From Owenia fusiformis (Eukaryota > Annelida > Polychaeta > Sabellida > Oweniidae), in contig CAIIXF020000012.1 in the NCBI GenBank assembly GCA_903813345.2, positions 29,708,684-29,772,683 on the forward strand: a stretch of 64,000 nt of DNA. The letters are read 5' to 3'. The notes below the pieces were generated by a model. That model made no database searches, had not been told where the DNA came from, and saw only the letters and a program-made list of their open reading frames with translations. The position numbers and the translations under genes are program-made. Every line of letters begins with the position of its first letter. Position 1 is the stretch's first letter. This document shows, piece after piece, positions 11,875 to 63,940 of this stretch.

Positions 11875-14800
11875 ATGGACATAAACAGACACATACTTCT
11901 CACTGTATGTCAAGTGGTAAGTAATTAAATTCAATCGTCTTGCTCAATTTGTGTTACATGGGCTCGTATAGTAAAAGCATATGCATGAATAGAAAAACTA
12001 AGTAAGAAAAATTAAATCCCAGACATATTTCATTAATAGAAGACATTTGTGCCAGACATATGCACTTATATAAAAAAAAATATATTATGGAATAATAGAA
12101 AACATGTACTATTGGGACATGCACTCATAGAATACATTTCTTTTTCAGTATCAAGCGAAGGTAACTGGGATTTTGGTTTCACGACCGTTACCGTATCATA
12201 CATATTTCCAGCTACCTTCCCTTTAATTCGATGAAAACTTCGCTTGATATTGACCAGTGATACATGGAGTCTCAGACAAAATTTTAATGGAAAACACATG
12301 TACACTAGCATCAACGAAATATATGTTTAAATATACTAAAAAAATGCACGTACTCCTAGACATATAAATGACTGAAGAGTATACCCAAAAATACAAAATA
12401 AGACATAAATAATTTTTTCCTGTGGTTTTGATATATGATCTTTTGATAAAAATGATCCAATTTCAATATATAGTCTACAACAGCATACAATTATTGTTTT
12501 CTTTGAGTTATTACTAAGTCTATATTTTTCTATGTATCAGCTACTTGTGGTCGGTAGTGTTGCAGAATCTGACCTAGAGTCTCTCCTCCCTCAACTGAAT
12601 AAATACCTAGATGGCCAACCTAATGTCAACCTCACAGAGTTTACAAACCAAGCCAAGCGACAGACAAGTCTCGTGTTCTATGCAGAACCAAAGAGTGTTA
12701 AGCAGGTGATTCTATTATTTATTGATTCTTTAGTTTTTTCCAAATGTTTAATAATTCTTCAGCTGATTTAATTGTGACCTACATGGGCTAATCCAAACCT
12801 TGCAAAATAAAATCAACCAACTAATTTGGTTTATTTATTTAGATCAAACAACTTCAATTGATTTAAGTGTGACCTACATGGGCTAATCCAAACCTTGCAA
12901 AATAAAATCAACCAACTAAGTTGGTTTATTTATTTAGATCAAACAACTTCAATTGATTTAAGTGTGACCTACATGGGCTAATCCAAACCTTGCAAAATAA
13001 AATCAACCAACTAATTTGGTTTATTTATTTAGATCCAACAACTTGTAAATGCCGCTAATAAGTTTGGTCTGCAAATAAGAGCTGTGGGAGCAAGCCATTC
13101 AGTGTCACCTTTATATCCTAACACAGGAGCTATAGCTGTGAACCTCTTCAATTTAGAGGGGAAAAAATTCAGCGGGAATAAGGTAATATGAGTTGTTTTT
13201 AATATCTCAATATAGTGTTGAAAATGTATTTAAGAATTGGAAGATCTTATTACTTATATGATAAAGTACTTAGTACTTTATATGGAATATGACATCAACT
13301 CCGTACATTATATAATTCAGGACTTTCTCAAATTTTTGGCCATATTTTTTTTATCTGAGCAAGCGCGGATATTTTCCGCCCTTTCTCTGTTTTTCAGTAA
13401 CCCTTTTTATGTTTTGTTAAACTTTACTGGCGGATCCATAGATAGTCTGTATCCGACAGACCCCCTTACAAAAAACATGCAATGGGCAGCAGTTCTTCAG
13501 AGCATGGATATTTTATTGGAATTAATTCATATATTTTATGATACATAGGAGCGTACAAGAGCCTCGGTTCTTGCATCGGCAACTGCACTGGAGTTCTATA
13601 GGTTTAACAAGGCAAACCGTGTCACAGTACCCAGTGTTCCTGTCATAGGAACTTCTAGTTTCCAAGGAATGATAGGGACCGCGTCACATGTGAGTATAAG
13701 GAGTATATATTCTAATTTTCGAAGAAGATTCACATGGTTAAGTTAATTTCTTCCTCAGTGGAGTCCTATGCTGTATCATTCCATACATTGTCTACATCTT
13801 TCAGTTTTTCACAAAGAGTGCATAAACATTTACACATAGCTAGGCAAGATATAACAAATATCAGCCAATCGGAACATGCTATTTCATGTAACTGACTTAG
13901 TTATATAACCAACAATCAACCCAAGGTCAATTAGATTAAAGTGAAATCCAGGCCCGTATTCAGGGGGGGGGGGGGGTTCGGGGGGTTCCCCCCTGGACAA
14001 AATTTCTTTCATATTCATGCAGTTTTCACCATTCTGACTATTTTTTGAGTGATTTTTTGACCAAATTTTCCAAAGTGAACCCCCTCGATTTTTTTGAAAA
14101 GTGAACCCCCTTGGAAAATTCTAGCTACAGACCTGAAATCTATAGATAGTATCAAAGGGAATGGCAAGCGTCAATAGTCATTTAATCGTCACTTATAATC
14201 TGGTAAGATTTATGTACCCATTTTGCAAATTTATAAGATGAAGACCATGTAAAGAGTATCTTTTTTCAGAGACAACACTTGATTCTGAAAGTTTGCAATA
14301 TTATGTAACTTTTCATAAGGAACAAACATTATATTGTATCATATCATATTATATTAATATTATGTTATGTTATATTAGTCATGTTAATGTTGAAGGGAGC
14401 TGCCCCCACTGAGGCTTCCCCAGCTAGCAGGGTTGTTGCAATAGATTTGGTTGATGGCAATGGTGACATCAGACACTTTGATGAGGAAACGGAGCCTGAT
14501 GTTCTGAGGGCATGTAGGGCACATTTGGGATTGTGTGGCATCGTATACAACACAACAGTCAAGGTAATAATTAATATTTTACTTGTTACTCTCTCTTTGA
14601 TGAGGAAACGGAGCCTGATGTTCTGAGGGCATGTAGGGCACATTTGGGATTGTGTGGCATCGTATACAACACAACAGTTGAGGTAGTAGCTGACATTGTT
14701 CTTTTAAGCTTTAATCTCTCTCCTCGGCATATTTGTTGATTACAGGAATCTCAACAATGTAAAAATTAGTCCCATATTCATGCACAACTCAACAACCTGA

Positions 14801-17800
14801 ACATTGCTCACATGCTCACTGACACACAACAATATAAGGAATGCTCAAATGATCATGTGCGACTCAACAATCAGAACATTGCTCACATGTTCATGATTGA
14901 CACATCAAGTTGGGAACATAAATAATGACTAACACTATGAAAAAGACATTCTGTCGCACATGTACTAAATTCTTACCTCGATCAGTAAATTGAGTGCTCT
15001 TTTTTTCTCCGTCCTGTAACGTGTAAATATAGTAGAATTTGTGTCCATAATGACAATTAGGAACTTAAAAATTTGAAGTGATATTCACATGTTCATGCCG
15101 ACTCTTCAAATGTTGAGGTGATTTTGGAGCCCGATTACTCCGCAAGAAGATTGGCTCCCATAATGCAACATGACACGTGACAGCTTTCAAAATGCAGTTC
15201 CGCCATTTTGAAACCTGTCACGAGTAAATAAGGTTAACTGATGTTACATTCTGGGAGTCAATCCTCCTTGAAACACAAGAATGGCGATCCATGAAAACAT
15301 TCGTTCGATTTGGTTGGAATTTATCCATCATTTGCAGGTATGAAGCGTTGGATTAATTTATTGTCCTACAAGAGTGAAAGGGAATTATTTTTCTACCGTT
15401 TGGGAGAGTCAGTTTGAGACATAAAACTAAGAATTTTGCTCATTTTGACAACTTTTGATGGCTGCGGTTTATAAAAGTTTTCCAGTTTAACTATCAAAAG
15501 AACGCTTTGATGGTATTGGCAACTCCACAAAATAATTTTTAGATTGTACCTGATAAAGTTGTGAAGTTCGCACACTCCCGTATACCAGTGGATGCCATTC
15601 TGTACAACAAAGAGAACAGGAGAGCCTTCATACATAGCCACTTCGCTATCAACATTGTGTGGGTTAGCTACAATGGTGCAACAGCGCAACAACGCAGATA
15701 CACAGAAAATGATGGACTCCGCAGGGCACATGAGACTTGGACTGCTAAACAGGACATGTTAGACGTCTGGTAAATATGTATTCAGATTTAAATTAACTTG
15801 GTGATGAATGTCAATGTTTGAAACAGTTGGAATTGCTTTAAAGTAACCGAACACGATTTTCAAAAGTAATTTGATAATAAATATGTATTCGTAGTAGATG
15901 AATAAAAACAAGGAGCACATGCGTCTCGAACTCGCTACCTCGTGGTTACGCCGCCCAATCGCCCAGCCTGAACGAGCTGGCGCTCAAGCCCTCTCGGCCA
16001 ACTCGGAAGTGTTTAAAAATCTTTATTTTAACTAAAAACTCTGACAAATTATATTGAGTTCAACTTAATGATGATACAGTTTAATGAGAATGTTACAATT
16101 TTATGACTGTCTCGACAATTGACCAATCAGTAGAGCTAAACCATGCCTCTTTTAAATATATTAGGACTGCTTCAAAAGTTAACAAATCTGATGAATATAA
16201 TCTAAATGGGGATATTCAACATGATAACACCATGTACCATAGTAACTACAGCTATATGACATTGTCAGATTCGCTATTGTTTGAACCATGGGGTGAAGAC
16301 AAATGCACAAAGATAAGTGGTTTCACTTGTTTTGCTACACCCGAGACTGATGATTTTACTGGAAGCTCTAAGACACTTGAGGTAATTAGATACGCCAACC
16401 TTTGTAATGTATTTAAATGTAAATGTAAGTGAACTCATATATACAGTATAGCCTTTTTGGTATCAACCCAATGACTTAAAGAGACTCTATTGAGACTTCT
16501 CTGTGGCATTTTTTCTTTATTCCTTTTTGTTTTGAATTTTTAACACCATAACATTAACAAACTACTCAATACGCAACTTTTCATGACGTAGAATTTTAAA
16601 ATATTAAGTTTGAAAATTCCATTTTTATAATGGAGCTCAATGAGAAAAAAAAGACACAATATGAATTATTTTCAAACGTAGCGGTGCAATTTCCTTGAAA
16701 TTGACAGATATAATAAATATTGGTAAGGCGAAATGTTTGAAGAAAAATGAAGAAAATTCACCTTCCTGGTTACGCAAAATATAGAAAAATGTGAATCATA
16801 AAAACCTGTAAAAATAGATTGAAGGGGGTGATATTCATTTTTAATGTGCCTCTCACTACTACAGGGTAACCATAGTTTTGGTAATGGTTTACTAATTTTA
16901 AAAGCATATCTTCCAGCATGTGTATCAAGCACAAGTAATACAATAAGTGAGTTATCATTAATTGGAATGGTATTATTGTATTCCTCAGCAATGACGACAA
17001 AAAGGTAAAATCGATCATATCACATACTAGTTCTCACCATCAGATCGATCGATTATAATGCATTTTAAACAATATGGCAATAGATCTTCAAATTCAAGTA
17101 CTGAGCTAAATTGTAAGATAATAAATAAATTGGTAATCCCTTATAACTGTATAATCCCCTTCTCCGAATCATACTGAATTATAATATTTCGATATGCTTA
17201 TTTTAGCTGCTGTAGTTTAGGTCACTTGATGAGATATTCAGTAACATGCTAAATAATCACTCGTAATAAGCAATATGAATTCTTCAACACAATCATTTTC
17301 AACAGCTTTTCAACACAATCATGAATTTAGTGCTCTGACCCTTAAAATACTTTTCAGGGGGAATAGTTTGTCCACCTGTAGACATGTAGCATCTTTTTCT
17401 AGCCATATTTTCCTAGGCCTGCTGGAATACATATTTCAGTGTGCAAGTTTAGCATTGTTTTCCCATTGATCATTTGAGTTCTCACGTCAATATTATGTGG
17501 AAATAAAAATGATAAGATGTCAAAAAGAGTAGTTTACTTTATTGTAAGAAATCAAAAATAAAATAAGGTTTGGGCAGGAAGGGAATAGGTGAAATCCTTG
17601 GGATACATGAATTAATTAATTATACGAAACATATTCATGTTTCTACAATTTAGGGTAACCCTGTGTTTTATTCTACTGGGACTGGTTATACCGGTGCAAA
17701 ATATTACAAAAATATTATTTACTTATTATCATAATTCAATGTGACAATATCAGTCTTATCTTCAAAGGACGATTCTCGGTTTGGAGAACGAAGTTCATCA

Positions 17801-20800
17801 ATCTAAATGAGCATTATCCCTGCTTCGGACAAATTTGATTTTTCTACATAATAAAGATTTGAATGTCTTCTTTTGATTAGTCATAATTTAATTTGGGTAA
17901 TATTTCTAGATTTTTCGCAAAAAAATATTAGCTCAGTACACTGATGGACTTCTTTCCCCGAATCGAGACTTGTATTTATATTGAATCGGTCTATTTGAGC
18001 ATTATCCCTGCTTCAGACCAATTTGTTATCTTTACATCTTGTAGATTTAAATGTCCTCTTTTGAATATTCATAGTTTAATTTGGGTAATATTTCTATATT
18101 TTTCATGAAAAAAATTATTAGCCCAGGAGACTGTTCTCCAAACCGAGAATCGTCCTTTGTCTATAATAGTTTGCCTGTTAGGTTGGGCAAGCCGTCTTTT
18201 ACGTTGATTGTATAAGATGTTGATTTTGCAAACCTCTTATGGGCTAATTCTACAATAAGTACTGTAACATATATGTAAGGGTGCCAGTATGTAGTCCAGT
18301 ATATAGTAAACAAAGGAGTATTTTGGTCAACTCAATACATCTGATAAACACTACATGAAGTGTTTTCTATGCAATGATTATATACAGGCACTTATTCATT
18401 GTTACTGTGAATTTCAAAAGCCTCCAAATTGTGTGGAATAGAGCATGCAATGTTTTTCAGTTTCAAGCAGGTTTAAGTACATTCTGACCAATTGTATTTT
18501 CAGAATTATTCATTTCAAGATTATGTAATACTGACCTACTTATCTGCCTAGTATATCTTTAACTAATTGCAAGAGATATCCGGACTTCAAAAATCAATGC
18601 CCAGGAAGTTAAGTTTCGTTTAGTGCATTGAGTTGCACGCGCACGCATATACATATATGATTATCCAAATGTAATATTATGGGGCCTTATTACCTTTTGA
18701 AGTGCACTTATCCCAGGCAAGAAAAATAATTATTATAGCATCAAAAGACACACAATAATGCATTTAATGTAACAAAATATGGTGGTATTCCTAATGTAAA
18801 AAAAAACATCATGAAGGAAAACATCACAATTCTTTCATTTCAACTGCTCTCAGCAAACATTTCTCAAGGGTGAATCAAGATTGATGGCAAATCCAGGTTA
18901 ACCTTATCTTGATATCAAGTTTGATCCAACATTGAAAAAATCAAGCTTAATGCAAAATTGATATCCTCAACCTTGATTCAAGCCTGAAAATCAACACTGA
19001 ATCAAGCTTGATATATTGACCCTGCGTTGAATCAACGTTGATTCAAGCTTGAATCAAGCTTGATGTTACACTCAATCAACCCAAGGGCAAGTGTGGCTTA
19101 TCAATACTTCAGAAAGTCAATGTTGAATCAATGTTGATTTTCATTGAATCAACATTGAGAAATGTTTACTGTGTAGTGTGTACCCTTCACACAGGTGGTC
19201 ATGGTTACCATAGGGGCAGAATATTGAATATAACATGTTGAAATTGTTTATGTATGTATAATTATTAGATTAACATTCTGTGAGAAATTGAGCCAGAATC
19301 ATTTATTGATGTTGACAATATAGTTAAAGCACTTTTCATCTTACCGTCTTTGTACACCCTGTATTATAGATACAGTATTACTCTGGAACATTAATTCTTA
19401 CACATATGGTGCTTTATTCCAGAACTTCGTCCAAATTGTTGAAAAAGGGCTTAAAAACATTGGCATTTTTAACCTGTCACCCTTTGCCTACTTTAGATGG
19501 CAGACACACAATTCAAACTGTCCCCTCTGTCACACTAAGGTAAATAACTTGTACTCTCTCTTCTGTTATAATAAGGGAAACAACTTATACTCTCTCTTCT
19601 GTCATACTAAAGTATAAAACTTTTATACCCGAGTAAATAATTTAATGCATAATTCTGAATCCTTAATGACAAAAATATCATTCGATGCACAAACATCGAC
19701 TGTCGAGCAATACACTATCCTCATCACCGCTGCTAAATGCTATTGACTGCTTCTAGTGTACTGTTGACCGCTAACATTACATATCTGGCTGGTGGCATCG
19801 AAGCTGTAGGAGATTTAACATCTCATTATTTCTACTAGCAATGTCCCATTAGCTGATACTATTCAAGTAAATTCACGATAACAGTCTCCGCTATTATGTC
19901 TGTGTTATAGGTGGCGGGAGAAAATGGCAGGGCACTCATACCAGAGCTGGTATTTCGCTATAACGACTGTCTTCATCCTAGGCACGCTGATGATGAAATA
20001 AGTGCACTTCAAAACTTTGAAACACTGGTACGTATATTCAAAATATTTTCTGTGTGACAACAAAATTGGTCCAGAATATACAAACCATTTAAAATACCAT
20101 GTGCAAATTCCAATTTAGAAAGATAGTTAAACAGTCAAAGTTTTCCTCGGAGCTAGCACTAAATTTTTGCTACCCTTAAATAGTACATATATGACAACAA
20201 TAATTCCAAAGTACTCTACATACCATTTTTAGGACACTTTTTAGTCGTATGCTTTATAAGGTCTTATAGCTTAGTATTGTGGAAAACAATGGTCTGACAA
20301 TTATTGACCGAATGCACTTAAGAAAAAATGAAGAAATTATGTTGGCAGATTTCAATTTTTCGAATATAAGAGGGACAATCTTTAGATTTTTAGCTCACAT
20401 CTTTCACTTCCAACAAATAGTTAAGGGTCCATTTTTAGAATGTAGATAAAACGAATGCATTCAATTGAGATACCTTATCCATTATCCTTGGTTTTTTAAA
20501 TAACCCATTACTACTTGCCTCTTTAGTTGACAGATGGAATGCTCCAAAACGCGACACACATCGCACCACATTGGGCCAAGTACGACATTCACACTCCTAA
20601 TGTGCCTGACCTCATCCGTGAAGTCTTCAAGAATGAGCTCAGTGAATTTATAGCAACCCGTAATATGCACAAACTGGACACTGGAAATATATTTATGAAT
20701 GATCATCTCAGAGATATATTTAGGAATGAGAAACTAGTAACTGGAAATAGTGTGTCAACTATCCATACTTTCAACATGTTTACATGTTTAACAATTGTAT

Positions 20801-20820
20801 TAGGTGTCTTAAAAGCATAA
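11875..20820 (+). CDS. Secreted FAD-linked sugar-lactone oxidase, paralogue 1
   Basis: Ten exons: 11875-11916, 12541-12705, 13033-13182, 13549-13689, 14396-14563, 15543-15769, 16165-16381, 19423-19539, 19911-20027, 20527-20820 (545 aa). All introns are GT..AG and phases agree throughout. Family: L-gulonolactone / D-arabinono-1,4-lactone oxidases, which oxidise aldonolactones with FAD and oxygen. Exons 1-2 give a signal peptide (core ILLTVCQVLLVVGSVA). Exons 2-5 form the FAD-binding PCMH domain; the loop usually VGxGHS, whose His binds FAD covalently, reads VGASHS (residues 87-92), so the His remains but the preceding Gly is Ser. The C-terminal ALO domain keeps HWAKYD and a LDTGNIFMNDHLRDIF end like the family's LDPxGxFxNxYL. 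Exon 8 has a CPLC pair. The last 18 residues are hydrophobic, perhaps a membrane or GPI signal. AATAAA at 20941 may be the poly(A) signal. The exon 5 acceptor is weak. Substrate cannot be told. Confidence 0.88.
12774..13050 (+). repeat. 95-bp tandem triplication carrying the exon-3 splice acceptor
   Basis: Three near-identical units with GTGACCT at 12774, 12869 and 12964 (exact 95-bp period). Each unit ends in TTTATTTATTTAG followed by ATCAAACAACTT or, in the third, ATCCAACAACTTG, which is the true start of exon 3 at 13033. The first two AGs (12841-12842 and 12936-12937) are thus decoy acceptors followed by the first dozen exon bases and then an in-frame TAA. Confidence 0.92.
13949..14135. 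mobile_element. CAGGCCCGTAGCC-type MITE with 5-bp target duplication
   Basis: Ends CAGGCCCGTATTCAG and AGCTACAGACCTG (imperfect inverted repeats), flanked by AAATC on both sides (13944-13948, 14136-14140). The body has G and C runs (GGGGGGTTC, AAGTGAACCCCC). It lies in intron 4 of oxidase gene 1. Related copies lie at 41634, 44853 and 57553. Confidence 0.8.
14595..14684 (+). pseudogene. Partial duplicate of oxidase exon 5 with its donor
   Basis: Bases 14595-14684 repeat 14476-14565 with very few changes: the last ~88 bases of exon 5 and the donor, offset 119 bp. No AG acceptor stands at its left edge, so it is not an independent exon. Splicing from its donor would include intron sequence that runs into a stop (TGA within the copy). 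It is a dead exon piece in intron 5. Confidence 0.85.
14750..14900 (+). repeat. CTCAACAATC / AACATTGCTCACATG repeats in intron 5
   Basis: Several copies of a unit containing CTCAACAATC, AGAACATTGCTCACATGTTC. The same unit recurs at 33290-33560 in intron 5 of the paralogous gene, so it predates the gene duplication. Confidence 0.6.
15914..16010 (-). repeat. tRNA-derived SINE or tRNA pseudogene
   Basis: On the minus strand a perfect polymerase-III A box (TGGCCGAGAGG, 15989-15999) is followed about 65 bp later by a B-box-like GCGAGTTCGAGAC (15922-15934). The spacing and the GGGCTTGAGCGCCAG segment resemble a type-II (Leu/Ser-like) tRNA with a long variable arm. The acceptor and T stems do not pair well, so a SINE head or degenerate tRNA is more likely than a working tRNA. 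It lies in intron 6 of oxidase gene 1. Confidence 0.55.
16480..18565. repeat. Segmental duplication, copy A (inside oxidase intron 7)
   Basis: This intronic segment matches 21565-24280 in the same orientation with many small differences. Matching blocks: 16480-17065 with 21570-22250, 17090-17760 with 23135-23870, and 18160-18560 with 23880-24275. Copy A uniquely carries the element at 17767-18155, copy B that at 22257-23128. Confidence 0.85.
17767..18155. mobile_element. Spy-like DNA transposon (389 bp), no target duplication, AAA|TTT site
   Basis: Inverted termini GGACGATTCTCGGTTTGGAG and its reverse complement. The left flank ends AAA (17764-17766) and the right flank begins TTT (18156-18158). 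The duplicated segment lacking the element reads CTTCAAATTTGTC at 23868-23880, so insertion occurred between AAA and TTT without any duplication. That is the defining habit of the Spy group. Internally a block of about 200 bp (TGAGCATTATCCCTGCTTC ... TTTAATTTGGGTAATATTTC) is present twice. No ORF. Confidence 0.85.
18849..19174. mobile_element. MITE rich in GAATCAAGCTTGATTC-like motifs
   Basis: Ends CAGCAAACATTTCTCAA and TTGAGAAATGTTTACTGTG are inverted repeats. The interior is packed with degenerate palindromes of TTGATTCAAGCTTGAATCAA type. It lies in intron 7 of oxidase gene 1. No coding capacity. Confidence 0.7.
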
Positions 20821-20829
20821 TCCCATATG

Positions 20830-21560: not shown

Positions 21561-21564
21561 GTTG

Positions 21565-42941: not shown

Positions 42942-43994
42942 CTGGTCAACTCAACCCCAAGTCAACTCAACCCAAGTCAACTCAACCCTTAGTCAAGTCG
43001 ACCCCAAGTCAAGTCGACCCTTAGTCAAGTCGACCCTAAGTCATCTCGACCCTTAGTCAACTCGACCCCAAGTCATCTCAACCCTTGGTCAACTCAACCC
43101 TTAGTCAAGTCGACCCAAATGATTTTACTTGTTTTAAGTAGATTAAAATACAATATAATCCAATTGTTTGTGCAGTTTGATTTGAAATCAAACTTCAAAG
43201 AAAAAAACATTTCTGTCACCTTTCTGTCATAGATCAAAACGAAGATTTAAACTGGATCATAAAATCCCAATCTGATTGTTTATGACACCTGACATATGAG
43301 TAAGATAATGGAAAATAGAAAAACATAAATCCCATTGTTTGTTCAGTCTTGTTTTAAAATCTTACATCAAAAAAATAAACATTTCTATCGCCTGTAGATC
43401 AGAAGGAAGATTTGAACCGGATCATATTGTTTATTATTATTATCAAAATATAAAATCATTCAATACAAAGTAATGGATGGATGTTGGCACAATGCACATG
43501 TTGCATAAGTTACCTGTTGTCGAAAATACTGTTGCAACAATTTCGGTATAACAGAAAAGTGTATAGATAATTTTTTTATTTCAGAGAGATTAAACAAGCT
43601 CAAATATTAAGGGGTGAAATATATGTATAGCATCGTGAATAGTCCTATTAAGATTAATCAAATATTATTTTGTTATTTATAAAAATTATAAATGTGTTAA
43701 GCACAAACTTCAATAGTTGATAATTTTATTTTGGAAAATTAGCATTTTAGTCCCTCATTCTTTCAAAATTCATCAATATCATACCATGAAAATAGTATAT
43801 CTATTTGTTTTTTATGATGGGGTCGAGTTGACTAAGGGTTGAGATGACCAAGGGTTGAGATGACTTGGGGTCGAGTTGACTAAGGGTCGAGATGACTTAG
43901 AGTCGACTTGACTAAGGGTCGACTTGACTTGGGGTCGACTTGACTAAGGGTTGAGTTGACTTGGGTTGAGTTGACTTGGGGTTGAGTTGACCAG
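42942..43994. mobile_element. Foldback element whose arms are CTCAACCC/GTCGACCC minisatellites
   Basis: The left arm (42942-43120) is about a dozen 13-15-bp units alternating TCAACTCAACCC and TCAAGTCGACCC with AAG or TTAG spacers. The right arm (43818-43994) is the same array inverted. Outer ends CTGGTCAACTCAACCCC and its reverse complement match exactly. The central 700 bp is AT-rich without ORFs, with an internal repeat pair (ATCATAAAATCCCAATCTGATT-like at 43256 and similar at 43325-43430). A clear target duplication was not found. Confidence 0.75.
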
Positions 43995-46586: not shown

Positions 46587-49500
46587 CTATGCAATTGTGC
46601 ACATTTGCATCAGCAGCATCTCCTCGAGTGCATGCGTATCTATAGCAACATCACAAAATGTTAATGTATCCGGCAATTCAGGGATGGAACTCCCAGAGCT
46701 GGAAAGTAGCTCAGAACTATCAGTGGCTATCTGCAAATGTTTCTGTGACGCATAGTCTGTGACATCATCAGAATCTGTGACCTCACAGGGTTCTGCGTCA
46801 CCGCCACCTAGCTGCTTGCTGTGTAGAGGGTGCTTCTGCTGTAGTGCAGGAGGGGGTGGCGGTGCTGCGGGAATACCCTGCAATATATAAGTTGTAATTG
46901 TTGAAATCATCAATTAACTGAGTCTCAAATTGTTATTCAATCTAAATCTATCTATATAATCACAAAGTAAATACGTTGTCATCTGAGTTAACTGAGCCTC
47001 TTATTAATAATTTAAGAAAAATGAATACATGTACTTTAATTTGAAATCATGTTTCATTTTTCTATTTCATCAGAAAATAAACACAAGATTTGTGTGCCGC
47101 AAGACCAACTATAGATAGTATGCATCCACAAAAGCCCTGTGGCACAAGACAAGGACAATATGGCACTTTTCTAAAGTGCAGAAAAAACACTGAAGATTGT
47201 TTTTATTCCTTTGAAACCTGGTAATACTAACTCGGAGAAAATAAAACTTCCCATCTCAATAATTAGTTGTCAAGGAATCAAATGTTAGTGGACTAGCCTA
47301 CATACCTGACGCTTATTATCTTGAACATATGTTTGATGAGGGGGGCCATCCACAGAGTGAAGATCCTGCAAAACAAAACCTTATCATTATCAACAAGATT
47401 TTTGTTACATCATTATTTTGAAATAAAGTGAAATTAAATTAAAAACAATATTATATTAAAAGCATTTAATTTGACTGTTTATATTTATTTACATTTATAT
47501 ATTAATTTAAAATAATTTATAAACATACATTTTTTGAAGTTTTAATTGACACATGAAATCTTATTATTGTCAATAATTAATATAGATAAATAGATGGTAC
47601 ACGTTTGTTCCAACTGGTTCTAACGTCTTGAAAACGTCTTGAAATATTTTGTCTAAATTACAGAGCTTTTGTGTTGCTGAAACTTGGAATGTCAGGCATT
47701 TATTTATAATTCCCATGCATAACGATTGTTTCTGTGACATTGTCAGACAACAAGAAGAAGTTCTAACTGGTTCTAACAATTACAAGTATGCATTATCCAA
47801 AACGTCTTGAAATATTTTGTCTAATTTATTTTATCCAATTTAGCTTTTGTGTTGCTGAAATTTGGTATGTCAGGCATTCATTTATAATTCCCATACAAAG
47901 ACATCAATATTATGCATAACAATTGCTCCTGTGACATTGTCAGACTATGAGAAGAAGCACAATGTGTTTTCAACACTTACCACATCAACATCAGGGAATA
48001 ACTTCTTCCTTACTTCCTCCAAAGTCTTCAACTTCGCTACAATAAAAAAACAAAGTACAATGAAAATGACTTGGTCAACTTTCACAAATTCATAAATGTA
48101 TGTATTCTTTGTTTAAATGGCAGTATTAAATATAAAAGCACACAAGTACGCAAAGTAAACATTTCCAAAATTCATGTTTCCAGTTTCAAAATCCTTAATC
48201 TTCATGTTTAGATGGCAGTTCACCAATTTTCTCTAAAGGGTTGTTATTCATATCTGTCCCATTGGTTTACGTGTAACTGCTATATGCTATTTCAATATCA
48301 TGAGGTTTCGGATACCATTTTCATTGAAATCTAATTTAGAGATTTTTGGAGCAATTTTTACATGTTAAGGTATGCAATTCAACCCACTGAATTCTTCGCT
48401 AGTTAGGGATTTATTGACAGCCCTTATAAGGCAATTAAAGTGCCTTACTTGGTGTGTTTGGTAGTTTAGACTTGATCAGCTTCTCAAAGTCCAGCCTGGA
48501 GGCGAGAGTAATCCCACCTTCTATTATTGTATAGACAATCTGCTTGATATCATTCTGCTGATCTAAACTGAAATCTTGTGTGTACTGAAAAACAGCAATG
48601 GTTATTTTCATAAACATTTAAAAGTCGTAATAATGTTTCAGCAAAGGCCCTGTACCTTATGTAGTATCTACATTCTATATGCACATGTATTTTATCAGAA
48701 ATAAATTAATACATTTAAACCAAATAAATAAAGATTTTTTTGCTAAATTATGGATTTGAAGGCTATAAATAGAGAAAGTGAAGTGTAACTGAGTTTCTGA
48801 CGAAATTCATATACCTCGTTGAGAACTTCCTCTACATTTTCTTTACTCATTTCCATAATGTTGCCGAACATGTATCCAGTGACTAGAGCAATGTAGATGC
48901 GTATAGCGTTCCTCATGTCATCTCTGAAGGCTTGTAGACTTATAGGGTCATCAGGGTCAGTAGACGTGGCACTCCCAAAGTCAATGATCTTAACAGGCAG
49001 ACCCTCCTTGTTCTGTAGTAATACATTACCGGCTGAAAAATAATGGGAAACTACAGTTTGTAGCCCAGGATAATGCAGGCTGGCGATACTCAAGACTAAA
49101 AGAATTGAGGGTGAAACTATTGAAGAAATTGTTGATGGATATATGTTTTAAATATACCCTATTATTTTAGAAAAGATAAAGACTATTGCATGTAAGATCA
49201 TTAATGTGCTCCTGATCATGACTTACTGGGTCATTGATGTCTATGATTATTCCCGATAAGGTTATAGATATGTTAACAAATATTCCTTATCTTAGGTCAT
49301 TAATATGCTTATAATCATTGAGATGTAAATGATTATTCCTGATAAGGTCATTGATATGTAAATGATTATTCCTAATAAGGTCATTGATATGTTAATGATT
49401 ATTCCATAAGGCCATAATATGTAAACAAAAGACCTTATAAGGTCATTGATATGTTTATGATTATTCCTTATAATGATATAATTGCACTCAATCTACGTAC

Positions 49501-51641
49501 ATACCATGCATGTCCTTATGCTGCCATCCCTTAGATTGCATCTGATTAATTGCACTTGTTAACTCATGGATTACGTAGATACTAAAAAATGATTTTAAAT
49601 TCTTGTCTTGAATGTAACCAACATTTTCACAGTCTATCACATCCTGCATGGTAGTTCCTAGAAAAACAATGTTTAAGGATATTACATGTATTGTATATTG
49701 CAGAGTTTTAGAACATGTTATATTTACATATTGTATATTGCAATGTTTTAGAACATATCATATTCACATATTGCAAAAAGTTCAAGAACATGTTATGTTC
49801 ACATATTGTATATTGCAATGTTTTAGAACATATCATATTCACATATTGCAAAAAGTTCAAGAACATGTTATGTTCACATATTGAATATTGCAATATTTCA
49901 AAATGATTATTTTCACATATTGTATATTGCAATGTTTTAGAACATAGATTCACATATTGTATATTGCAATGTTTTAGAACATAGATTCACATATTGTATA
50001 TTGCAATGTTTTAGAACATATTATATTCACATATTGCAAAAAATTCAAGAACATGTTATGTTCACATATTGTGTATTGCCATGTTTAAGAACATAGATTC
50101 ACATATTGTGTATTGCCATGTTTAAGAACATAGATTCATATATTGTATATTGCAATGTTTAAGAACATAGATTCACATATTGTATATCGCAATGTTTAAG
50201 AACATATCATATTCACATATTGTACATGTATATTGCAAAAAGTTCAAGGACATGTTATGTTCACATATTGAATATTGCAATATTTCAAAATAATTATATT
50301 CACATATTGTATATTGCAATGTTTTAGAACATAGATTCACTTATTGTATATTGCAATGTTTTAGAACATAGATGCACATATTGCATATTGCAATGTTTAA
50401 GAACATATCATATTCACATATTGTATATTGCAAAAAGTTCAAGAACATGTTATGTTCACATATTGAATATTGCAATATTTCAAAATGGTTATATTCACAT
50501 ATTGTATATTGCAATGTTTTAGAACATAGATTCACATATTGTATATTGCAATGTTTTAGAACATAGATTCACATATTGTATATTGCAACGTTTTAGAACA
50601 TATCATATTCACATATTGTACACTGTGTTTTACAACATGTTAAAATTGAATACTGTTCAGAACATGATATGTTCACATATCAGTGATCTCACCAGCATTA
50701 AAGCAAGTGGGCGCAGCACCCACCTGAGATTTTGAAAATAGGCTTGCACCCACCTCAAAATCCATTTGCACTCATTTGAAAATAAGAAAAATCATGAAAA
50801 ATTGGCAAATTTTGGCCTGAATTGTGAAAATGAGAATTTTGCACCCACCTGAGAAAAAATCCTGGGGAGATCACTGCATATTGTACATTGCAATATTTCA
50901 GAAAAAGCAAAAATGAGTGAGTAGATGGGAAGGGTTCAATACCTTTGTCTACATGTTCCATTTGCATCTTGACATCATGCCCATCAAGCCAGACTTTATA
51001 CAGAGTAGGTGTGTACCCAGAATCCTCTAAGTCCAGCATGCATTGCACTTCATTTTTATTGAAACTAGCGAAGAATACCTGGAAGGTTACCACATATTTT
51101 TAACTTCATATGCCCTTGAATTAATTGACTTTAATTGACCATTCTTATGGCGTGTTTATACATGTTTTTTGAGTAAGTATATGATATATCCATGGGTGAG
51201 TGTGCCAAATGAGTGAATATATATCATACACTCACAATAATATAAAAAACCACAATATACAGAATTGACAATTATATTAACTTATTGCTAATATTAAAGA
51301 CCAGATAAAAAATATTTTCATCAAATAATTACTTGATCTCAGAGTTTTATCTTTCAAGATAAGATTTTCACATGTTATCAACTCATGCATCTAATGGACA
51401 AACAAGTGGTACGAGACTAGAACCAGTTTACTTAAAAATATCAGGGAATTCATTTCCAACAGATAGAATTATTGAAGAATAGAACTAGAATTCCATTAAT
51501 TTATCTTCATTTCTTAAACAAAAGTATTACTGATTTTTCTGCTGCTGTTTGTCCACCCTTTTCTTTAAGTACAACTTTTCCAAGCATTCCTTCTCCAAGT
51601 ATCTTTGTAAACTCTTCTTTCTGTACGTCATCATCTATGGC
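46587..51641 (-). CDS. Protein kinase with HKDMHAGN catalytic loop (N-terminus not found)
   Basis: Eight exons in transcription order: 51641-51531, 51078-50943, 49657-49505, 49032-48815, 48584-48449, 48036-47981, 47365-47306, 46877-46587 (386 residues, 5' partial). All introns are GT..AG and phases match. Numbering from the first exon: glycine loop GEGMLGKV (16-23), catalytic loop HKDMHAGN (129-136, equivalent to HRDLKxxN), then DFGSA (151-155). These are the active-site elements that bind ATP and carry out phosphotransfer. The lysine of the usual VAIK motif is not evident: the expected strand reads VFFASF (38-43). The tail has a helical region (LDFEKLIKSKL), a PPPPP stretch and an acidic/serine-rich end. 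The HKDMHAGN loop recalls divergent, aminoglycoside-kinase-like or lineage-specific kinases, and I cannot assign a subfamily. The first exon opens in phase 0 on an acceptor, so at least one upstream exon is missing. Confidence 0.82.
49685..50640. repeat. About 36-bp minisatellite in kinase intron 2
   Basis: Roughly 25 units of TTCACATATTGTATATTGCA + ATGTTTTAGAACATA, with recurrent variants: a longer one containing AAAAAGTTCAAGAACATGTT and one with AATATTTCAAAAT. Variants are arranged in higher-order groups. Reading frames on both strands are artefacts. Confidence 0.9.
50681..50876. mobile_element. CAGTGATCTCC-type MITE with 5-bp target duplication
   Basis: Ends CAGTGATCTCACCAG and TGGGGAGATCACTG; exact target duplication CATAT (50676-50680, 50877-50881). 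Body contains GCACCCACCTGAGA near both ends and TTTTGAAAATAGG. It is in kinase intron 2, between the minisatellite and exon 2. Other copies are at 54627 and 59986. Confidence 0.85.
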
Positions 51642-51654
51642 CTGAAGTTACACA

Positions 51655-52087
51655 GAGGAGAAGGCTAAACTACAAATTTTTAATCTGTCCTAAAGTTACA
51701 AAGAGGGAAAATATGAAAAGTGAATAAGGAGGTTAAACTACAATTTTTTAATCTATGACCTGAAGTTACACAGAGGGAAGCCTGAAAAGTCATCTAAGAG
51801 GTTAAACTAAAAAATTTTAATCTGTGAACTGAAGTTACACAGAGGGAAAATGTGGAAAGTAAATAAGGAAGCTCCCTCTCCAAGTATCTTTGTAAACTCC
51901 TCTTTCTGTACGTCATCATCTATGGCCTGAAGTTAAAAAGAGGGAAAATGTTAAAAGTGAATAAGGAGGTTAAACTACAATTTTTTAATCTATGGCCTGA
52001 AGTTACACAGAGGGCAGCCTGAAAAGCCATTTAAGAGGTTAAACTAAAAATTTTAATCTGTGAACTGAAGTTACACAGAGGGAAAAC
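51655..52087 (-). repeat. Tandem repeats of the kinase first-exon acceptor, with a partial exon copy
   Basis: Units of about 65-70 bp repeat the sequence that straddles the exon acceptor (CCTCTGTGTAACTTCAG then GCCATAGAT on the minus strand): true copy near 51641, others near 51755, 51822, 51929, 51993 and 52065. At 51872-51930 the unit also includes some 50 bases of the exon itself (GATGACGTACAGAAAGAGGA ... CTTGGAGAG, minus strand). The array is interrupted by the element at 52088. Confidence 0.82.
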
Positions 52088-53694
52088 CACGGGGTACCAT
52101 CGAATAATTTTGGCAACGTACCGGAGAACGACATTTTACTAAGAAATGGCAATAATTTAGCACAATATATTTTTTAACTAGAGTTCTATTTTGATTTTGA
52201 CAAAAGTAAGTATTCCATGCAATGACTATTTCATTCATGAGTTTGTAGGAATTCTGTTGGAACCCAGTTCTGATCAAGTACGAAGTTATTGAAATCTGCG
52301 CAGACGGACTTTACTCCGAAAGATGGTTTTTCGATTATAACTTTTCACAACATTTAAGTATAGACTTTTGAAAAAAGTACAGAATAGTCCTTATACTTTT
52401 GAATAATTCTGTTATTTCTGATTCACACGACTCTGATTTGTTTAATTAAAAAAAAAATTTAAAAATATTACTTAGGAACGTAACCGGAGCTGGGAACGTA
52501 ACCGGAGCAGATCAGTTGAATTATTTAATCAAAAAAATTAAAATATATGATTTAAAGCACATATACTAATTTAAAAACATACGGGATTGTTCGAATGCGT
52601 ATTTATTACATTTTATTTAAAGAAAAAAATTTATCCATTGTGAAAAATTAAATTTGGTATTTACCATGCATAAGTGCACTTACCTTAGAAAGGCTATCAA
52701 ACATAGAACAATCATTGTATGGAGAATGAAGTGATTAAATGTAGTAAGCAAATAATTCCATTTGATTTCACCCATTGTATTTGTTCAGCGAACTATTAGA
52801 ACCCACTCTGTTATACTAATTTCGTATATATATACTGTTTATACATACATGTATTATACTACTAGGACAACTTCTCTTTTTCAGGGGAAATAAAAACATT
52901 TAAATGCTAGATTATTAAAAAAGTTAGGATACAACGAACTGTATATAGCGTAGGTGTGTTAAGTACTTGTCATGTGCTCGACCAAATCGAATCAACATAT
53001 GCTTTCTGAAATTCTTCACCTAACCCCCCCCCCCTCCATATAAACGTAAGATGTTTAAGTGAGTGCCCGTTTATTGTTTTATGCAAAACCAGTTGTTATC
53101 CATCTTTGTTTCGATAAACCCAGGCGTGGGTCATTAAGCAAGTAAGAAAGTGAATGATTTTTTCTAGTTAAACTACAGAACATTGCTTTTCAGTCGTTAA
53201 TAGACATCAAGTAAGCTGACATATGTGTTTGTAAATAATATATATGCTTTAAATCATATATTTCAACTGATCTGCTCCGGTTACGTTCCCAGCTCCGGTT
53301 ACGTTCCTAAGTAATATTTTTAAAACTTTTTTTAAATTAAACAAATCAGAGTCGTGTGAATCAGAAATAACAGAATTATTCAATAGTATTAGGACTATCC
53401 TGTACTTTTTTCAAAAGTCTATACTTAAATGTTGTAAAAAGTTATAATCGAAAAACCATCTTTCAGAGTAAAGTCTGTCTGCGCCGATTTCAATAACTTC
53501 GTACTTGATCAGAACTGGGTTCCAACAGGATTCCTACAAACTCATGAATGAAATAGTTATTGCATGGAATACTTACTTTTGTCAAAATCAAAATAGAACT
53601 CTAGTTAAAAAATATATTGTGCTAAATTATTGCCATTTCTTAGTAAAATGTCGTTCTCCGGTACGTTGCCCAAATTATTTGATGGTACCCCGTG
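52088..53694. mobile_element. 1.6-kb long-TIR element, CAC termini, 5-bp target duplication
   Basis: Ends CACGGGGTACCATCGAATAA and its near reverse complement; exact target duplication AAAAC (52083-52087, 53695-53699). Removing element and one duplicate restores GGGAAAACATGGAAAGTG, as in sister repeat units. The inverted arms run about 480 bp each. Each contains a direct pair of GGAACGTAACCGGAGC at the arm's inner side. The centre lacks a convincing ORF, so the element is non-autonomous. It sits in the repeat array 5' of the first kinase exon found. Confidence 0.88.
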
Positions 53695-57550: not shown

Positions 57551-57552
57551 TC

Positions 57553-58157: not shown

Positions 58158-61100
58158 ATGCAGACAATAAAGATTGTATTAATAGTTCTGGTGCTGCTGG
58201 CCCAGCTACAGGGAACGGCAGCATTTGGACCATTCTTTAGGAGACTTCTATCACGCTTTATAACTGTGACGCCAGTTCCAGAATTAGACTTGCCAAAATA
58301 TTTGGGAAGATGGTACCAGGTGAGGATAAACATTTACAGTAAAACTTGTGTATAGTGAACATTTTTTTGCCAAGAAAAAGCGTTCACTGTAGGTAGGTGT
58401 TCACTAGAGAGAGGGTAATTTATACAGAAGTCAGTGGACTATGTGCGTAGAAAGGGTGTCCACTAGAGACAGGTGTTCACTAGAGAGAGGTGTTCACTAA
58501 GACAGGTTTTACTGTACTTTCAAATAATTGTGACATCATGCATGAGTGACGTCGTTTCTATAGCAATGAGTTTGTATCTATACCAGCCAAAAGGGAAGCA
58601 AATAAGGATAGTAACCAAAATATATATTTCTGAAAGATACAAGTCAAGACCTTCCATATGGTACATGTACCAAACATGTAAAGTTGTATGGGGATTGTAT
58701 AAACCTGACCTATTCTTCCCAAATTGTCAACTGTTTATAGTGCTATAATGGTCCTTTTTCTATATAGCTTTGAAATCTCATTAAAGGCTCGTTTTAAATG
58801 AGATTTAGGAGATCTGCATTTTTAACCATTAAAGACTAACATTTACTTCTATTTGATGCCATATTTGAATTCTGTGTGTTATTTTATATATTTAAACAAC
58901 TTTGATTTGATTTATTTAACTTTATTCAAATTCATAAGATTTTCTACTGTTTAAAAAAAGGTTGGGCTAAATCCCATAGTCATGTGAAACCACAATCCAC
59001 ATGTCAATAAGATCATATTGTTACATTCCAATGGTGTTTTAAGTTTATCCAAATGGAATTACTTCTTAAATCAAGAAATTAAGTGACTCTTCAAAATAGA
59101 TTACCATGTATTCTAAGCCCTACCAACACCTATGATGTCATCTATTTTTCAATTTATATGGAAAATGGTCAATTGCATCATGTTGACAATAAATGATATC
59201 AAGAGAATATATGATATTAGATTATAGAGATTATCCTATATGAGGTTCAGGATATTGGGATTATCCTGAGGCCAATATAATATATCTGCCCGAGGGCCGT
59301 AGTTCCCGAGGGTAGATATATTATATTGGCCAAGGGATAATCCCAATATCCTGAACCGACTATAGGATGATCTGTTTATCCCATACAAATCTTGGTCATC
59401 ATCTGGTTCACATTGTTCAATTGGCCACAGTTCAAGCATGGAAATATCTTTATTCATGTCCAGTTTTGTTTCCTTGGTCGTGGCTGGATTTTCCTGTTCT
59501 TTCAGATATTCCCACATTTATTTTCTTTAATTTCTAATTAACTGAATGCTCCTTCCCTTCTTTAAACCATCAAACAGATCGCGAAATTGTCTGTGTTTCT
59601 CTCCATTGTCGTTTACAGTTATTATGCGAACGTTACTAAAATTAACTAATATGCGAGCTGTGATTATGACGTAGGGGGCAGATATACTATATCTGCCCAC
59701 TCGGAGCGGGACGTAAAGCTATATCTGCCTTTTTACAAATCTGCTTTATGAACCTGTAACAAGTATGTCCAAGTATGGGATAAATCCCATTTATCCTACA
59801 TTCTTAGGTGTTTTTTTTATAATTTTTAAAGTAAAAGTAAAACATGCGTAATTGGAACCTTTGATACATCTAGTTTTCTACTTGGAAAGTGTTATGCTTA
59901 CAAAGGTTCATTTAATATTAAGTCAATTGGCTAAAGGACAAGTGTGACACTTTACATGTTATACTGTATGTATACGAAGGGGTATCAGTGATCTCCTCAG
60001 GATATTTTCTCAGGTGGCTGCAAAATACTCATCTTCACGATTCAGACCAAAATTGGTCAAAATATGGTAATTTTTCATGATTTTCTCATTTTCAAGTGGG
60101 TGCAAATGGATTTTCAGGTGGGTGCAATCCTTCTTTCAAAATCTCAGGTAAATGCTGCGCCCACTTGCTTTAGGGAGATCACTGGGTATACTTTTTCAAT
60201 AGAATGAGTTCAGCAGATGATTCTACGTTTTGTATAAAATGCTCACCTCAAGATTTTACAATTTGAAACTGAGATGTTCACTCAATCCATACTCTATTAA
60301 TTAAATGATTTCATGCAAATGAAAAATAAACTATTAAATAAGCTATAAAAGGCTCAGCCAATAAAAGTCAGAATAGCATTATTTCTTCTATTTCAGATGT
60401 ATACAAGCCCTGTTGTTTTGAACACATTTGAAAGAGATGCTGTCTGTGTATATGCCGAATGTAAGTACTGTGTAAGCCCTATGTTACATACATGTCTTTT
60501 CTCCATCAGAAATTATCATGGGCATGAATCAGCCTGCATCATACACATACAATATAATTCAGCGGTGATTCGGCATCGCTAAAATTAGGCGCTATTCCTG
60601 CACCGTTCCGGCACCAAAACCTTTCGACACCAAAATTTGGCACTGGCCTAGTCAGTCCATTTGGTGCCGAAATGGCACCGAAACAGCGTTGAAAACCAGA
60701 TTGCATTTTGGGGGTATATCTTGAGCATTTCAGGCTTTCAGTACACTTCTTTGCTTAATTAAGGATTATACATTAAAGGATTCAAATCCAGGGGTCCATG
60801 ATTGAGGGTGATTTAAAGCAGGAGTTTGTTGTATGAAACTCTAAACGAGGGTAGGAGCCTGAAATTCTTGAACAAGGTAGATTTAAAGATACAAGTGCAT
60901 TTATCACCCACGGTTTATTAAATGCGCTTAAAGTCTTTCAAATATAGCAAAAGATTTTGAACAATATGACTAAAGAGAATGAAACTTTTTTGCAATGTTA
61001 ACATTTTGATACTTGGCTAATCATTATAACATTACAAGTTATTGAATGATTTGAAGTGCAATACAGGATATATCATGCTCAAGAAATTATGTATTGGCAT

Positions 61101-62482
61101 GAGACAAAGTCAAGTTGAATTACAAAATATCAAGGGCACAATATATCCTGTGTTGCACTTCAAATCATTCTATAACGTTTTTATCGTGTGATCTAAGGCA
61201 ATTATTCAGTTATTAGGGAGCTTATCTCCAGGAAATAATCTGTATTCTCTATATTGCTACTGAGACTGTCCTCTCCGTACCAATAATTTCTGTATTGCTA
61301 CAAAGTGGGGGCAATCTCAATACAGCAATACAGAATGGTACAGCACAAGAACTGACCAATCAGAGGACTTCATTTTACAGATTAAATAAGATATTATGAA
61401 AGTTATCCACTGGTTACAAAAACACCATTTTTATATTGACATAAGACATTGTACATCCATAATTTACTTTAAATTCACATATTTTGCGTGTTTTCAGATG
61501 CTTTGAGACCAGATGGCAAGAGCATCTCAGTGTTTAACGCTAACAGAGTGAAAGTACCAACAGGGCCTCCTAAGAACATAACTGGCTATGCAACCCTCAC
61601 TGACCAACCTGGCTATCTGATGGTTAAGTTCCCTGTGGCACCTGTCGCTGCGCCATGTAAGTATACATTAACATTTGGGGTTATCCCGTGGCACCTGTCG
61701 CTGCGCCATGTAAGTATACATTAAAATTTGGGGTTATCCCGTGGCACCTGTTGCTGCGCTATGTAAGTATACATTAAGATTTGGGGTTATCCCGTGGCAC
61801 CTGTCGCTGCACCATGTAAGTATACATTAACATTTGGGGTTATCCCGTGGCACCTGTTGCTGCGCCATGTAAGTATACATTAACATTTGGGGTTATCCCG
61901 TGGCACCTGTTGCTGCGCCATGTAAGTATACATTAACATTTGGGGTTATCCCGTGGCACCTGTTGCTGCGCCATGTAAGTATACATTAAGATTTGGGGTT
62001 ATCCCGTGGCACCTGTTGCTGCGCCATGTAAGTATACATTAACATTTGGGGTTATCTTACAGTTTCACATTCAATGGAATGGTTTAAAGAAACTGCATAA
62101 TTATGAGTTTTCCACTGGTTACAAAAATACCCTTTTTATATCTGAAATTCACAGCAAATATGCTATTGGATACTAACCATTATCAAATACAACATGAATT
62201 TGTCCATAATATCAAAAATTATTATCAAAATTATTATTTAATGATAAATTATTTTTTGTTTTAGATATTGTGATAAAGCTTGGGCCAGTTGTAAATGGAG
62301 AATACCAATACAGTGTTGTGACTGACAACTTTAAGGCCTCACTCTTTGTTCTTGCCAGAGACGTACAGGAGTTCTACGCAAAATACAATGCTGAAGTTCT
62401 ACCATTCTTGAAAGCTGAAGGGTTTACTAACTTCCTTAACAAGCCTGTCAAGACAAATCAAGATCCTACTTGCATATATTAG
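58158..62482 (+). CDS. Secreted lipocalin, apolipoprotein-D-like
   Basis: Four exons: 58158-58319, 60397-60460, 61498-61656, 62265-62482, giving a complete 200-residue protein; introns are GT..AG in phases 0, 1, 1. Residues 1-23 are a signal peptide (core IVLIVLVLLAQL). The lipocalin signature GxW is YLGRWYQ (48-54). Exons 2-3 continue as in apolipoprotein D: a CVYAEY strand (Cys71) and a DGKSISVFN segment, then ITGYATLTDQPGYLMVKF. Exon 4 has the YQYSVVTD strand and the helix VQEFYAKYNAEVLPFLKAEG. The only mature cysteines, 71 and 198, match one conserved ApoD disulfide. The protein probably binds small hydrophobic ligands outside the cell. TATTAAAAG at 58101, 57 bp before the ATG, is a possible TATA element. 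The exon 3 donor lies in the 53-bp array and the last six codons lie in the first unit of the 71-bp array. Confidence 0.93.
58337..58514. mobile_element. TA-flanked CAGTAAAAC MITE in lipocalin intron 1
   Basis: Ends CAGTAAAACTTGTGTATAGT and GTTCACTAAGACAGGTTTTACTG are inverted and flanked by TA. The interior repeats GTGTTCACTAGAGAGAGG several times. It starts 17 bp after the exon 1 donor. The same MITE end heads the 55-kb minisatellite. Confidence 0.75.
58520..59210 (+). other. Lipocalin intron 1, first part; nothing recognised apart from a repeat
   Basis: AT-rich sequence. 59020-59170 is an inverted, diverged copy of bases near 53800-53950. No gene or regulatory element assigned. Confidence 0.35.
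59215..59790. repeat. Dispersed repeat R1, copy 2
   Basis: The longer copy of the repeat also at 38860-39225. It contains an inverted pair around ATATATCTGCCCGAGGGCCG and CCCGAGGGTAGATATAT, and further inverted blocks GATTATCCTATA ... TATAGGATGATC and GGCAGATATACTATATCTGCC. A 93-codon minus-strand frame (59236-59517) runs through it. Because the other copy does not keep this frame open, I treat it as repeat sequence and not a gene. Confidence 0.7.
59986..60184. mobile_element. CAGTGATCTCC-type MITE with 5-bp target duplication
   Basis: Ends CAGTGATCTCCTCAGG and TAGGGAGATCACTG; exact target duplication GGTAT (59981-59985, 60185-60189). It lies in lipocalin intron 1. Confidence 0.87.
60462..61497 (+). 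other. Lipocalin intron 2
   Basis: At 61039-61174 a MITE has inverted ends TTATTGAATGATTTGAAGTG and CACTTCAAATCATTCTATAA with ACAGGATATAT / ATATATCCTG inside them. A GGCACCGAAA / TTTCGACACC-like internal pair lies at 60590-60690. The remainder shows nothing. Confidence 0.55.
61635..62050 (+). repeat. 53-bp tandem array carrying eight copies of the exon-3 splice donor
   Basis: Units of exactly 53 bp: GTGGCACCTGTCGCTGCGCC then ATGTAAGTATACATTAACAT and TTGGGGTTATCCC. GTAAGTAT occurs at 61657, 61710, 61763, 61816, 61869, 61922, 61975 and 62028. The first is the functional donor of lipocalin exon 3; each unit also holds the last ~22 bases of that exon. Use of a downstream donor would add a multiple of 53 bases and shift the frame. 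Confidence 0.95.
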
Positions 62483-63940
62483 AACAATACTTGCATATAC
62501 CTACTTGCATCAACTAGAACAGGAATCATCAGGACCCTACTTGCATATATTAGAACAATACTTGCATATACCTACTTGCATAGACTAGAACAGGAATCAT
62601 CAGGACCCTACTTGCATATATTAGAACAATACTTGCATATACCTACTTGCATAGACTAGAACAGGAATCACCAGGACCCTACTTGCATATATTAGAACAA
62701 TACTTGCATAAACTTACTTGCATAGACTAGAACAGGAATCATCAGGACCCTACTTGCATATATTAGAACAATACTTGCATAAACTTACTTGCATAGACTA
62801 GAACAGGAATCATCAGGACCCTACTTGCATATATTAGAACAATACTTGCATAAACTTACTTGCATAGACTAGAACAGGAATCATCAGGACCCTACTTGCA
62901 TATATTAGAACAATACTTGCATAAACTTACTTGCATAGACTAGAAAAGGAATCATCAGGACCCTACTTGCATATATTAGAACAATACTTGCATATACCTA
63001 CTTGCATCAACTAGAACAGGAATCATCAGGACCCTACTTGCATATATTAGAACAATACTTGCATAAACTTACTTGCATAGACTAGAACAGGAATCATCAG
63101 GACCCTACTTGCATATATTAGAACAATACTTGCATATACCTACTTGCATCAACTAGAACAGGAATCATCAGGACCCTACTTGCATATATTAGAACAATAC
63201 TTGCATATACCTACTTGCATCAACTAGAACAGGAATCATCAGGACCCTACTTGCATATATTAGAACAATACTTGCATATACCTACTTGCATCAACTAGAA
63301 CAGGAATCATCAGGACCCTACTTGCATATATTAGAACAATACTTGCATATACCTACTTGCATCAACTAGAACAGGAATCATCAGGACCCTACTTGCATAT
63401 ATTAGAACAATACTTGCATATACCTACTTGCATCAACTAGAACAGGAATCATCAGGACCCTACTTGCATATATTAGAACAATACTTGCATATACCTACTT
63501 GCATCGACTAGAACAGGAATAATCAGGACCCTACTTGCATATATTAGAACAATACTTGCATATACCTACTTGCATCGACTAGAACAGGAATGATCAGGAC
63601 CCTACTTACATATATTAGAACAATACTTGCATATACCTACTTGCATTGACTAGAACAGGAATCACCAGGACCCTACTTGCATATATTAGAACAATACTTG
63701 CATATACCTACTTGCATCAACTAGAACAGGAATAATCAGGACCCTACTTGCATATATTTGAACAATACTTGCCTATACCTACTTGCATAGACTAGAACAG
63801 GAATCATCTAAATTCTACTTGCATAAACAGAACAATAGTCTCCAGGACCCTACTTGCATATACTAGAACAATTGTCATCGGGACCCTATTTGCATACTTG
63901 CATACATTAGAACAATACTCATAAGGACCCTACTTGCATA
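62461..63940 (+). repeat. 71-bp minisatellite that begins inside the lipocalin stop region
   Basis: Nineteen regular units; GGACCC occurs every 71 bp from 62532 to 63739. Each unit contains CCTACTTGCATATATTAG, which in the first unit (62463-62482) encodes the lipocalin's last residues and stop. The unit itself has a shorter internal ACTTGCATA motif three times. After 63809 the units become irregular and fade near 63940. Confidence 0.95.

Follow-up and report, generated by a model that had tools for sequence, protein, structure and literature searches.

The window, by which is meant the whole 64-kb stretch of Owenia fusiformis DNA that was analysed, contains two oxidase genes in tandem, a kinase-like gene fragment and a lipocalin gene, modelled from splice consensus and from the comparison of the two oxidase paralogues. 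Tandem arrays, detected by Tandem Repeats Finder (TRF) and self-alignment of the window, touch several of their borders:

11875-20820, + strand: oxidase A gene model, 10 exons, the first provisional (Pfam FAD_binding_4, E=1.2e-11)
30088-40135, + strand: oxidase B gene model, paralogue in tandem with oxidase A, 9 modelled exons (no first exon found)
48815-51641, - strand: kinase-like gene fragment, 4 exons modelled, putative reading frame across the exons
58158-62482, + strand: lipocalin gene, 4 exons (Lipocalin_2, E=7.9e-16)
12757-13044, + strand: array of 3.0 copies of 95 bp spanning the acceptor of oxidase A exon 3 (TRF)
14476-14688, + strand: two-copy duplication at an offset of 119 bp, oxidase A exon-5 donor
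19526-19622, + strand: array of 2.7 copies of 36 bp across the oxidase A exon-8 donor (19539/19540)
51588-52088, - strand: compound array across the acceptor of the kinase-like exon 51531-51641
61630-62056, + strand: array of 8.0 copies of 53 bp across the lipocalin exon-3 donor (61656/61657)
62457-63896 by TRF, feature drawn to 63940, + strand: array of 20.3 copies of 71 bp (19 in the initial annotation), lipocalin stop region

The initial annotation had listed five of these arrays, all of which were confirmed by TRF and self-alignment, while the sixth, at the exon-8 donor of oxidase A, was absent from its list and was found by TRF. Oxidase A exon 3 starts at 13033; the 95-bp array reaches 12 bp into it and includes two upstream decoy acceptors, with boundaries at 12842 and 12937. 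The duplication at exon 5 consists of two 94-bp copies (14476-14569 and 14595-14688, 97% identical in the self-alignment and unlisted by TRF) and contains the last 88 bp of the exon with its donor (14563/14564), the decoy donor being at 14682. The exon-8 array has one decoy in which GT is kept and one in which it is lost, and in the lipocalin exon-3 array GTAAGT is present in all seven decoy donors. The kinase array is composed of TRF units of 68-69 bp and a 63-bp copy at offset 285; seven copies carry the acceptor, six of them as decoys. The lipocalin reading frame ends at 62482, and its final 26 bp, stop codon included, lie in the first unit of the 71-bp array; a stop region is not a splice border. 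Altogether the window has 49 splice borders, five of which lie within an array, namely three donors (oxidase A exons 5 and 8, lipocalin exon 3) and two acceptors (oxidase A exon 3 and one of the kinase gene). None of the modelled splice borders of oxidase B, the exons of which are 86% identical to those of oxidase A, is covered by a listed array.

The tested kinase exon matches the Pfam profile Pkinase weakly (E=0.035, below the cut-off), and the name therefore rests on HKDMHAGN...DFG, read by eye over two exons. In the same gene, two more arrays (49193-50680) flank exon 49505-49657 and end 10 and 23 bp short of its borders. An element with inverted 447-bp arms that are 96% complementary (52088-53694) lies at the kinase array's outer end. 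It has a possible AAAAC target duplication, seen by eye, and as array-like sequence was seen by eye on both sides of it, the kinase array is probably older than this insertion. A second element, at 42942-43994, has 175-bp inverted ends (98% complementary), each built from tandem copies of a 16/32-bp unit. The window also contains an open frame of 408 amino acids (6023-7249, - strand) that encodes an AZUL domain, a domain also present N-terminally in ubiquitin ligases of the UBE3A type, and an open frame with a DUF4817 helix-turn-helix (36421-37092), the remainder of which resembles, by eye, a mariner-type transposase.

The arrays look locally born, unlike a dispersed satellite, because in a genome search, which diverged copies may escape, the 95-bp unit had three matches and the 71-bp unit 19, all of them in their own arrays. 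For these two units, the ones searched, there are thus no copies at other loci as in a dispersed satellite or a transposon-borne repeat. The lipocalin region 61480-62480 likewise had no second full-length match in the search of this one assembly, which diverged copies may escape; its last exon has a 72% match over 123 bp on contig C6, which may be a paralogue.

Arrays make up 12.7% of the window and 13.9% of its intron bases, and are thus common everywhere; of its modelled exon bases they make up 4.9%. Whether it is unexpected that so many of them straddle exon edges, as had been supposed in the initial annotation, depends on the null. When whole arrays are placed at random, 4.3 straddled splice borders are expected and 5 of 49 (10.2%) observed (P=0.43), or 2.9-3.4 and 3 with the TRF arrays only, and by this measure nothing is unexpected. 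Such a placement lets arrays overwrite exons, which is why a second null was added, in which every array is cut down to one founding unit before placement; this null is fairer because array growth is self-copying. With it, 1.75 straddled borders are expected against the 5 observed (P=0.025), or 0.76 against 3 with the TRF arrays only (P=0.038). The supposition is borne out in part only. As the window was picked for these arrays, neither P value stands alone.

The question was carried to a sample of the genome assembly (498 Mb, 525 contigs), in which exons were found by profile search with four Pfam families. From the 486 listed matches, 228 were chosen by eye before their DNA was read (myosin head 58 of 92, kinesin 79 of 144, protein kinase 62 of 144, P450 29 of 106); this hand-filtered pool excludes many matches that were long, weaker, clustered, multi-stop or seemingly without introns, and also the myosin exons repeated on contig C9 and all but two rows of a kinesin array. 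The C9 exons are twelve matches to the same myosin-head stretch (about 27-81 of the profile), spaced by 0.3-1.9 kb (C9:37986009-37994334, - strand), and look like a bank of mutually exclusive muscle myosin exons. From the pool, 178 exons were drawn at random, each with 600 bp on both sides, and 58 rows of the list supplied 16 further exons that do not overlap the drawn loci, which gives 194 exons and 276,366 bp. The locus with the kinesin array (L179) is outside the 194, whereas the neighbouring exon L186, which overlaps it, is included. TRF found 62 arrays with a period of at least 20 in this sample, and for the founding-unit tests all 388 match ends were treated as borders.

The borders of L129 and the donors of L134 and L135 had to be set by eye, because the profile matches ran into decoys; automatic border calling missed L129, left the L135 donor just below threshold and misplaced that of L134. 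By the automatic calls, 9 (TRF) or 10 (with BLAST, L148 included) of 309 borders in the first 178 loci are straddled, against 4.0 and 5.6 expected (P=0.014 and 0.047). L148, a straddler by self-BLAST, was dropped, as it is a pair of diverged, probably mutually exclusive kinase exons, 178 bp apart, 68% alike and matching the same profile stretch (C10:2256296-2257645); the gene is presumably a GSK3-like kinase. The straddled exons of the full sample, and the kinesin array outside it, are the following:

Sample exons with a straddled border: L020, L042, L043, L047, L050, L057, L066, L129, L134 (both borders), L135, L185, L188
C2:23265700-23270300, gene on the - strand: L179 kinesin array, acceptor and 114-bp profile-matching stretch, 18 copies at 159 bp

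Accordingly, 13 of the 388 borders are straddled (3.4%, 95% interval 1.8-5.7%), nine acceptors and four donors, and 12 of the 194 exons, or roughly 1 in 16, have such a border (6.2%, 95% interval 3.2-10.6%). One kinase exon, L134 (C5:68821-70377), has arrays at both borders, and L185 and L188 (C6:40705560-40710884), exon matches about 4 kb apart that probably belong to one kinesin gene, have one array each, which is why border arrays may cluster by gene. As in the window, the comparison with chance has two outcomes. The bulk density of arrays in the flanks predicts 24 covered borders, and the 13 observed are thus a deficit (P=0.008), whereas the founding-unit null predicts 5.7-7.1 straddlers, so that the same 13 are a roughly twofold excess (P=0.006-0.021). 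This excess weakens, without vanishing, once part of the flanks is taken to be other exons: with 15% of the flanks exonic about 8.0 straddlers are expected (P=0.05), and with 30% P becomes 0.13-0.14.

A further result of the sample concerns the exon interiors. By the founding-unit null, 10.4 of the 62 arrays should lie wholly inside an exon match in the 194 exons, and none does (P=3e-5). One of the two explanations offered in the initial annotation, that selection lets arrays grow only on the side of the intron, is supported by this. Its statement that the repeats nucleate exactly on exon borders is not supported, since the border lies anywhere from 13 to 90% of the unit, array coverage drops towards the exon, and fewer borders are covered than the bulk density predicts. 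Over 309 called borders in 178 loci, coverage drops from 8.9% at 400-550 bp from the border to 3.75% over the first 10 bases of the intron; such a drop would also arise from arrays pushing the flanks apart, even with random birth. Five arrays (the second array of L042, and those of L111, L136, L164 and L173) stay within the intron, ending 8-14 bp away from the called border, and were not counted as straddlers, and an array at L096, within 40 bp of a match, likewise ends short of the border; the ends of arrays may thus pile up beside splice signals.

Sharp nucleation on the border is therefore not supported, while arrays may be founded near borders about twice as often as expected, though this is not proved. 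Such an excess could be taken to mean that exon borders are mutational hot spots at which duplication starts more often. The cause may be, for example, intermediates of transcription or splicing, such as R-loops or the copying of unspliced RNA, or else the low-complexity tract that precedes acceptors. Besides the twofold excess in both sample and window, it fits with such a hot spot that 18 of the 62 arrays cross a match end or come within 15 bp of one, where 9.4 would be expected (P=0.004), but this margin was chosen post hoc, and with 15 or 30% of the flanks exonic the expectation rises to 10.6 (P=0.014) or 12.2 (P=0.05). The excess of straddlers by themselves also loses significance under such modest corrections, the border has no fixed position within the unit, bulk coverage declines towards exons, and acceptors and donors are both affected. 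A hot spot thus appears unlikely. The exonic share of the units has a mean of 0.64 and is skewed upwards (KS P=0.035, 17 arrays), and the unit length is a multiple of three in 7 of 19 arrays, without frame bias.

In the straddling arrays the splice site is copied along with the unit. The initial annotation had held that the outermost or innermost unit is functional and the others are decoys. Judged from reading frame and homology, by which the functional copy was assigned, this would be the last copy in acceptor arrays and the first in donor arrays, but an end copy has to be the functional one on geometric grounds alone. In L179, continuation into the rest of the exon is found only from the last copy. 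The acceptor arrays of a myosin exon (L042, at about 32 bp) and a kinesin exon (L043, mostly at 29-33 bp) have at least 19 copies each, these counts being lower bounds as both arrays reach the end of the fetched piece, and up to 18 decoy acceptors thus lie upstream of the putative functional one. In oxidase A exon 3 and at the L134 acceptor, the decoys are identical and the functional copy differs from them, which is not so in L047 and L129.

Decoys were aligned to the functional site in 17 arrays (five of the window, eleven of the sample and the kinesin array, with L185 and L188 outside the set), and 90 of 93 have kept AG or GT. It is conceivable that the arrays are kept for a function, the repeated splice sites buffering or tuning splicing or giving alternative exon ends, and in line with this the dinucleotide columns (3 of 34 variable) vary less often than those of the intron (44 of 170; P=0.04). 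They do not differ significantly from the exon part (34 of 192, P=0.31) or from all other columns (P=0.12), however, and as the copies are related by descent, the columns are not fully independent, so that neither selection for decoys nor selection against them is clearly indicated. Use of a decoy would keep the frame without adding a stop at 18 of 89 positions (18 arrays, L179 not among them), in oxidase exon 8, L043, L050, L135 and L188, two of these 18 having lost GT, whereas the remaining 71 would shift the frame or bring a stop; none of the seven lipocalin decoys is among the 18. Maintenance for function is thus quite improbable. Even less can be said for an artefact, in which the repeat copies would come from assembly error or the borders would be mis-called. 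The copy numbers of arrays are indeed hard to assemble, but the nine exons modelled in both oxidases have their borders in common, the oxidase and lipocalin exons, when joined, have no stop in translation before the final one, the units within most arrays differ from one another, and the same anatomy recurs at the 13 sampled borders and in the 18-copy kinesin array, which makes an artefact very improbable.

The best reading, for which we put the probability at about 0.76, is that these are ordinary minisatellites, born in place, purged inside exons and tolerated across borders. In the mechanism that we infer, a local tandem duplication of about 30-160 bp would by chance include an exon border, and the duplicated unit would then expand via slippage or unequal exchange. 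Selection would remove duplications inside exons, while a border-crossing one would survive because the exon-contiguous copy still has a complete splice site, which splicing would presumably go on using, so that the array could be tolerated and absorbed as part of the intron. With minisatellites so abundant in this genome, arrays would be expected at a few per cent of borders. Against this reading stands the twofold founding-unit excess in sample and window, which random birth with selection does not predict, and the excess of arrays within 15 bp of match ends and the upward skew of the exonic share also count against it. One could instead combine a genuine, roughly twofold founding hot spot at borders with a proximity rule by which the exon-contiguous copy (last acceptor, first donor) is always picked from rows of up to 19 near-identical acceptors, border arrays then being both made and tolerated by how splicing works, but this combination is rather unlikely as well.

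Minisatellites of this kind are known from amphioxus, where tandem repeats spanning exon-intron boundaries are called "mirage" minisatellites, a name given for Adh3 and applied to globin genes (PMC3087553) and also to PGBD5 (PMC3902484). As far as these two accounts go, the set comprises Adh3, the globins BflGb6 and BflGb9, TnC and PGBD5, with arrays on 5' or on 3' borders, unit lengths of 10-160 bp and many AG/GT decoys; RT-PCR suggests normal splicing, and somatic instability is described for Adh3. The Owenia arrays resemble these accounts in that units span the exon-intron boundary (at five window and 13 sampled borders), donors and acceptors are both affected, and nearly all decoys keep AG or GT. 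They differ from what is described there for single lancelet genes with RT-PCR in the annelid host, in copy numbers of up to 19 and in the frequency from a genome sample, and are known here from the DNA of one assembly. In that assembly three partial matches to the haemoglobin-linker family PF16915, which is restricted to annelids, exceed the family's cut-off, with none in 14 control genomes, all of them non-animal; GFP-family matches were found neither in it nor in control genomes, and a COX1 search of it gave none. Internal tandem repeats at exon-intron boundaries have further been reported for human genes in segmental duplications (De Grassi and Ciccarelli 2009, PMC2812944); from what is accessible of that study, these are alike in being minisatellite expansions at exon borders that vary between paralogues, but they concern recent paralogues and often change the transcript, whereas the Owenia reading frames imply that the intron absorbs the array. 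In the potato RdRp gene, intron gain by tandem genomic duplication has been described (PMC4974935), which, on the part of that description considered here, is similar as a within-gene tandem duplication tied to splice sites, but the Owenia arrays sit in existing introns, and no new intron is seen with them. An earthworm paper (PMC12783039) mentions intron minisatellites and, in its accessible portions, does not place them on splice sites, and no report of mirages in annelids was found in searches of open-licence papers. The Owenia arrays fit mirages, as a known kind of feature in a new host group and with a first rough frequency.

If about 6% of annelid exons carry copied splice sites, mirages would be a general outcome of minisatellite birth in intron-rich genomes, beyond lancelets, and border arrays would be a steady source from which new introns and alternative exon ends could arise. 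They are also a trap for annotation, as profile matches repeat in the decoys or extend into them. The long acceptor arrays (18 copies at 159 bp and at least 19 at 29-33 bp in kinesins, at least 19 at about 32 bp in a myosin) are natural experiments on the choice of the spliceosome among identical sites, and if the last copy is indeed the functional one, a first-AG or first-come rule would choose the wrong acceptor.
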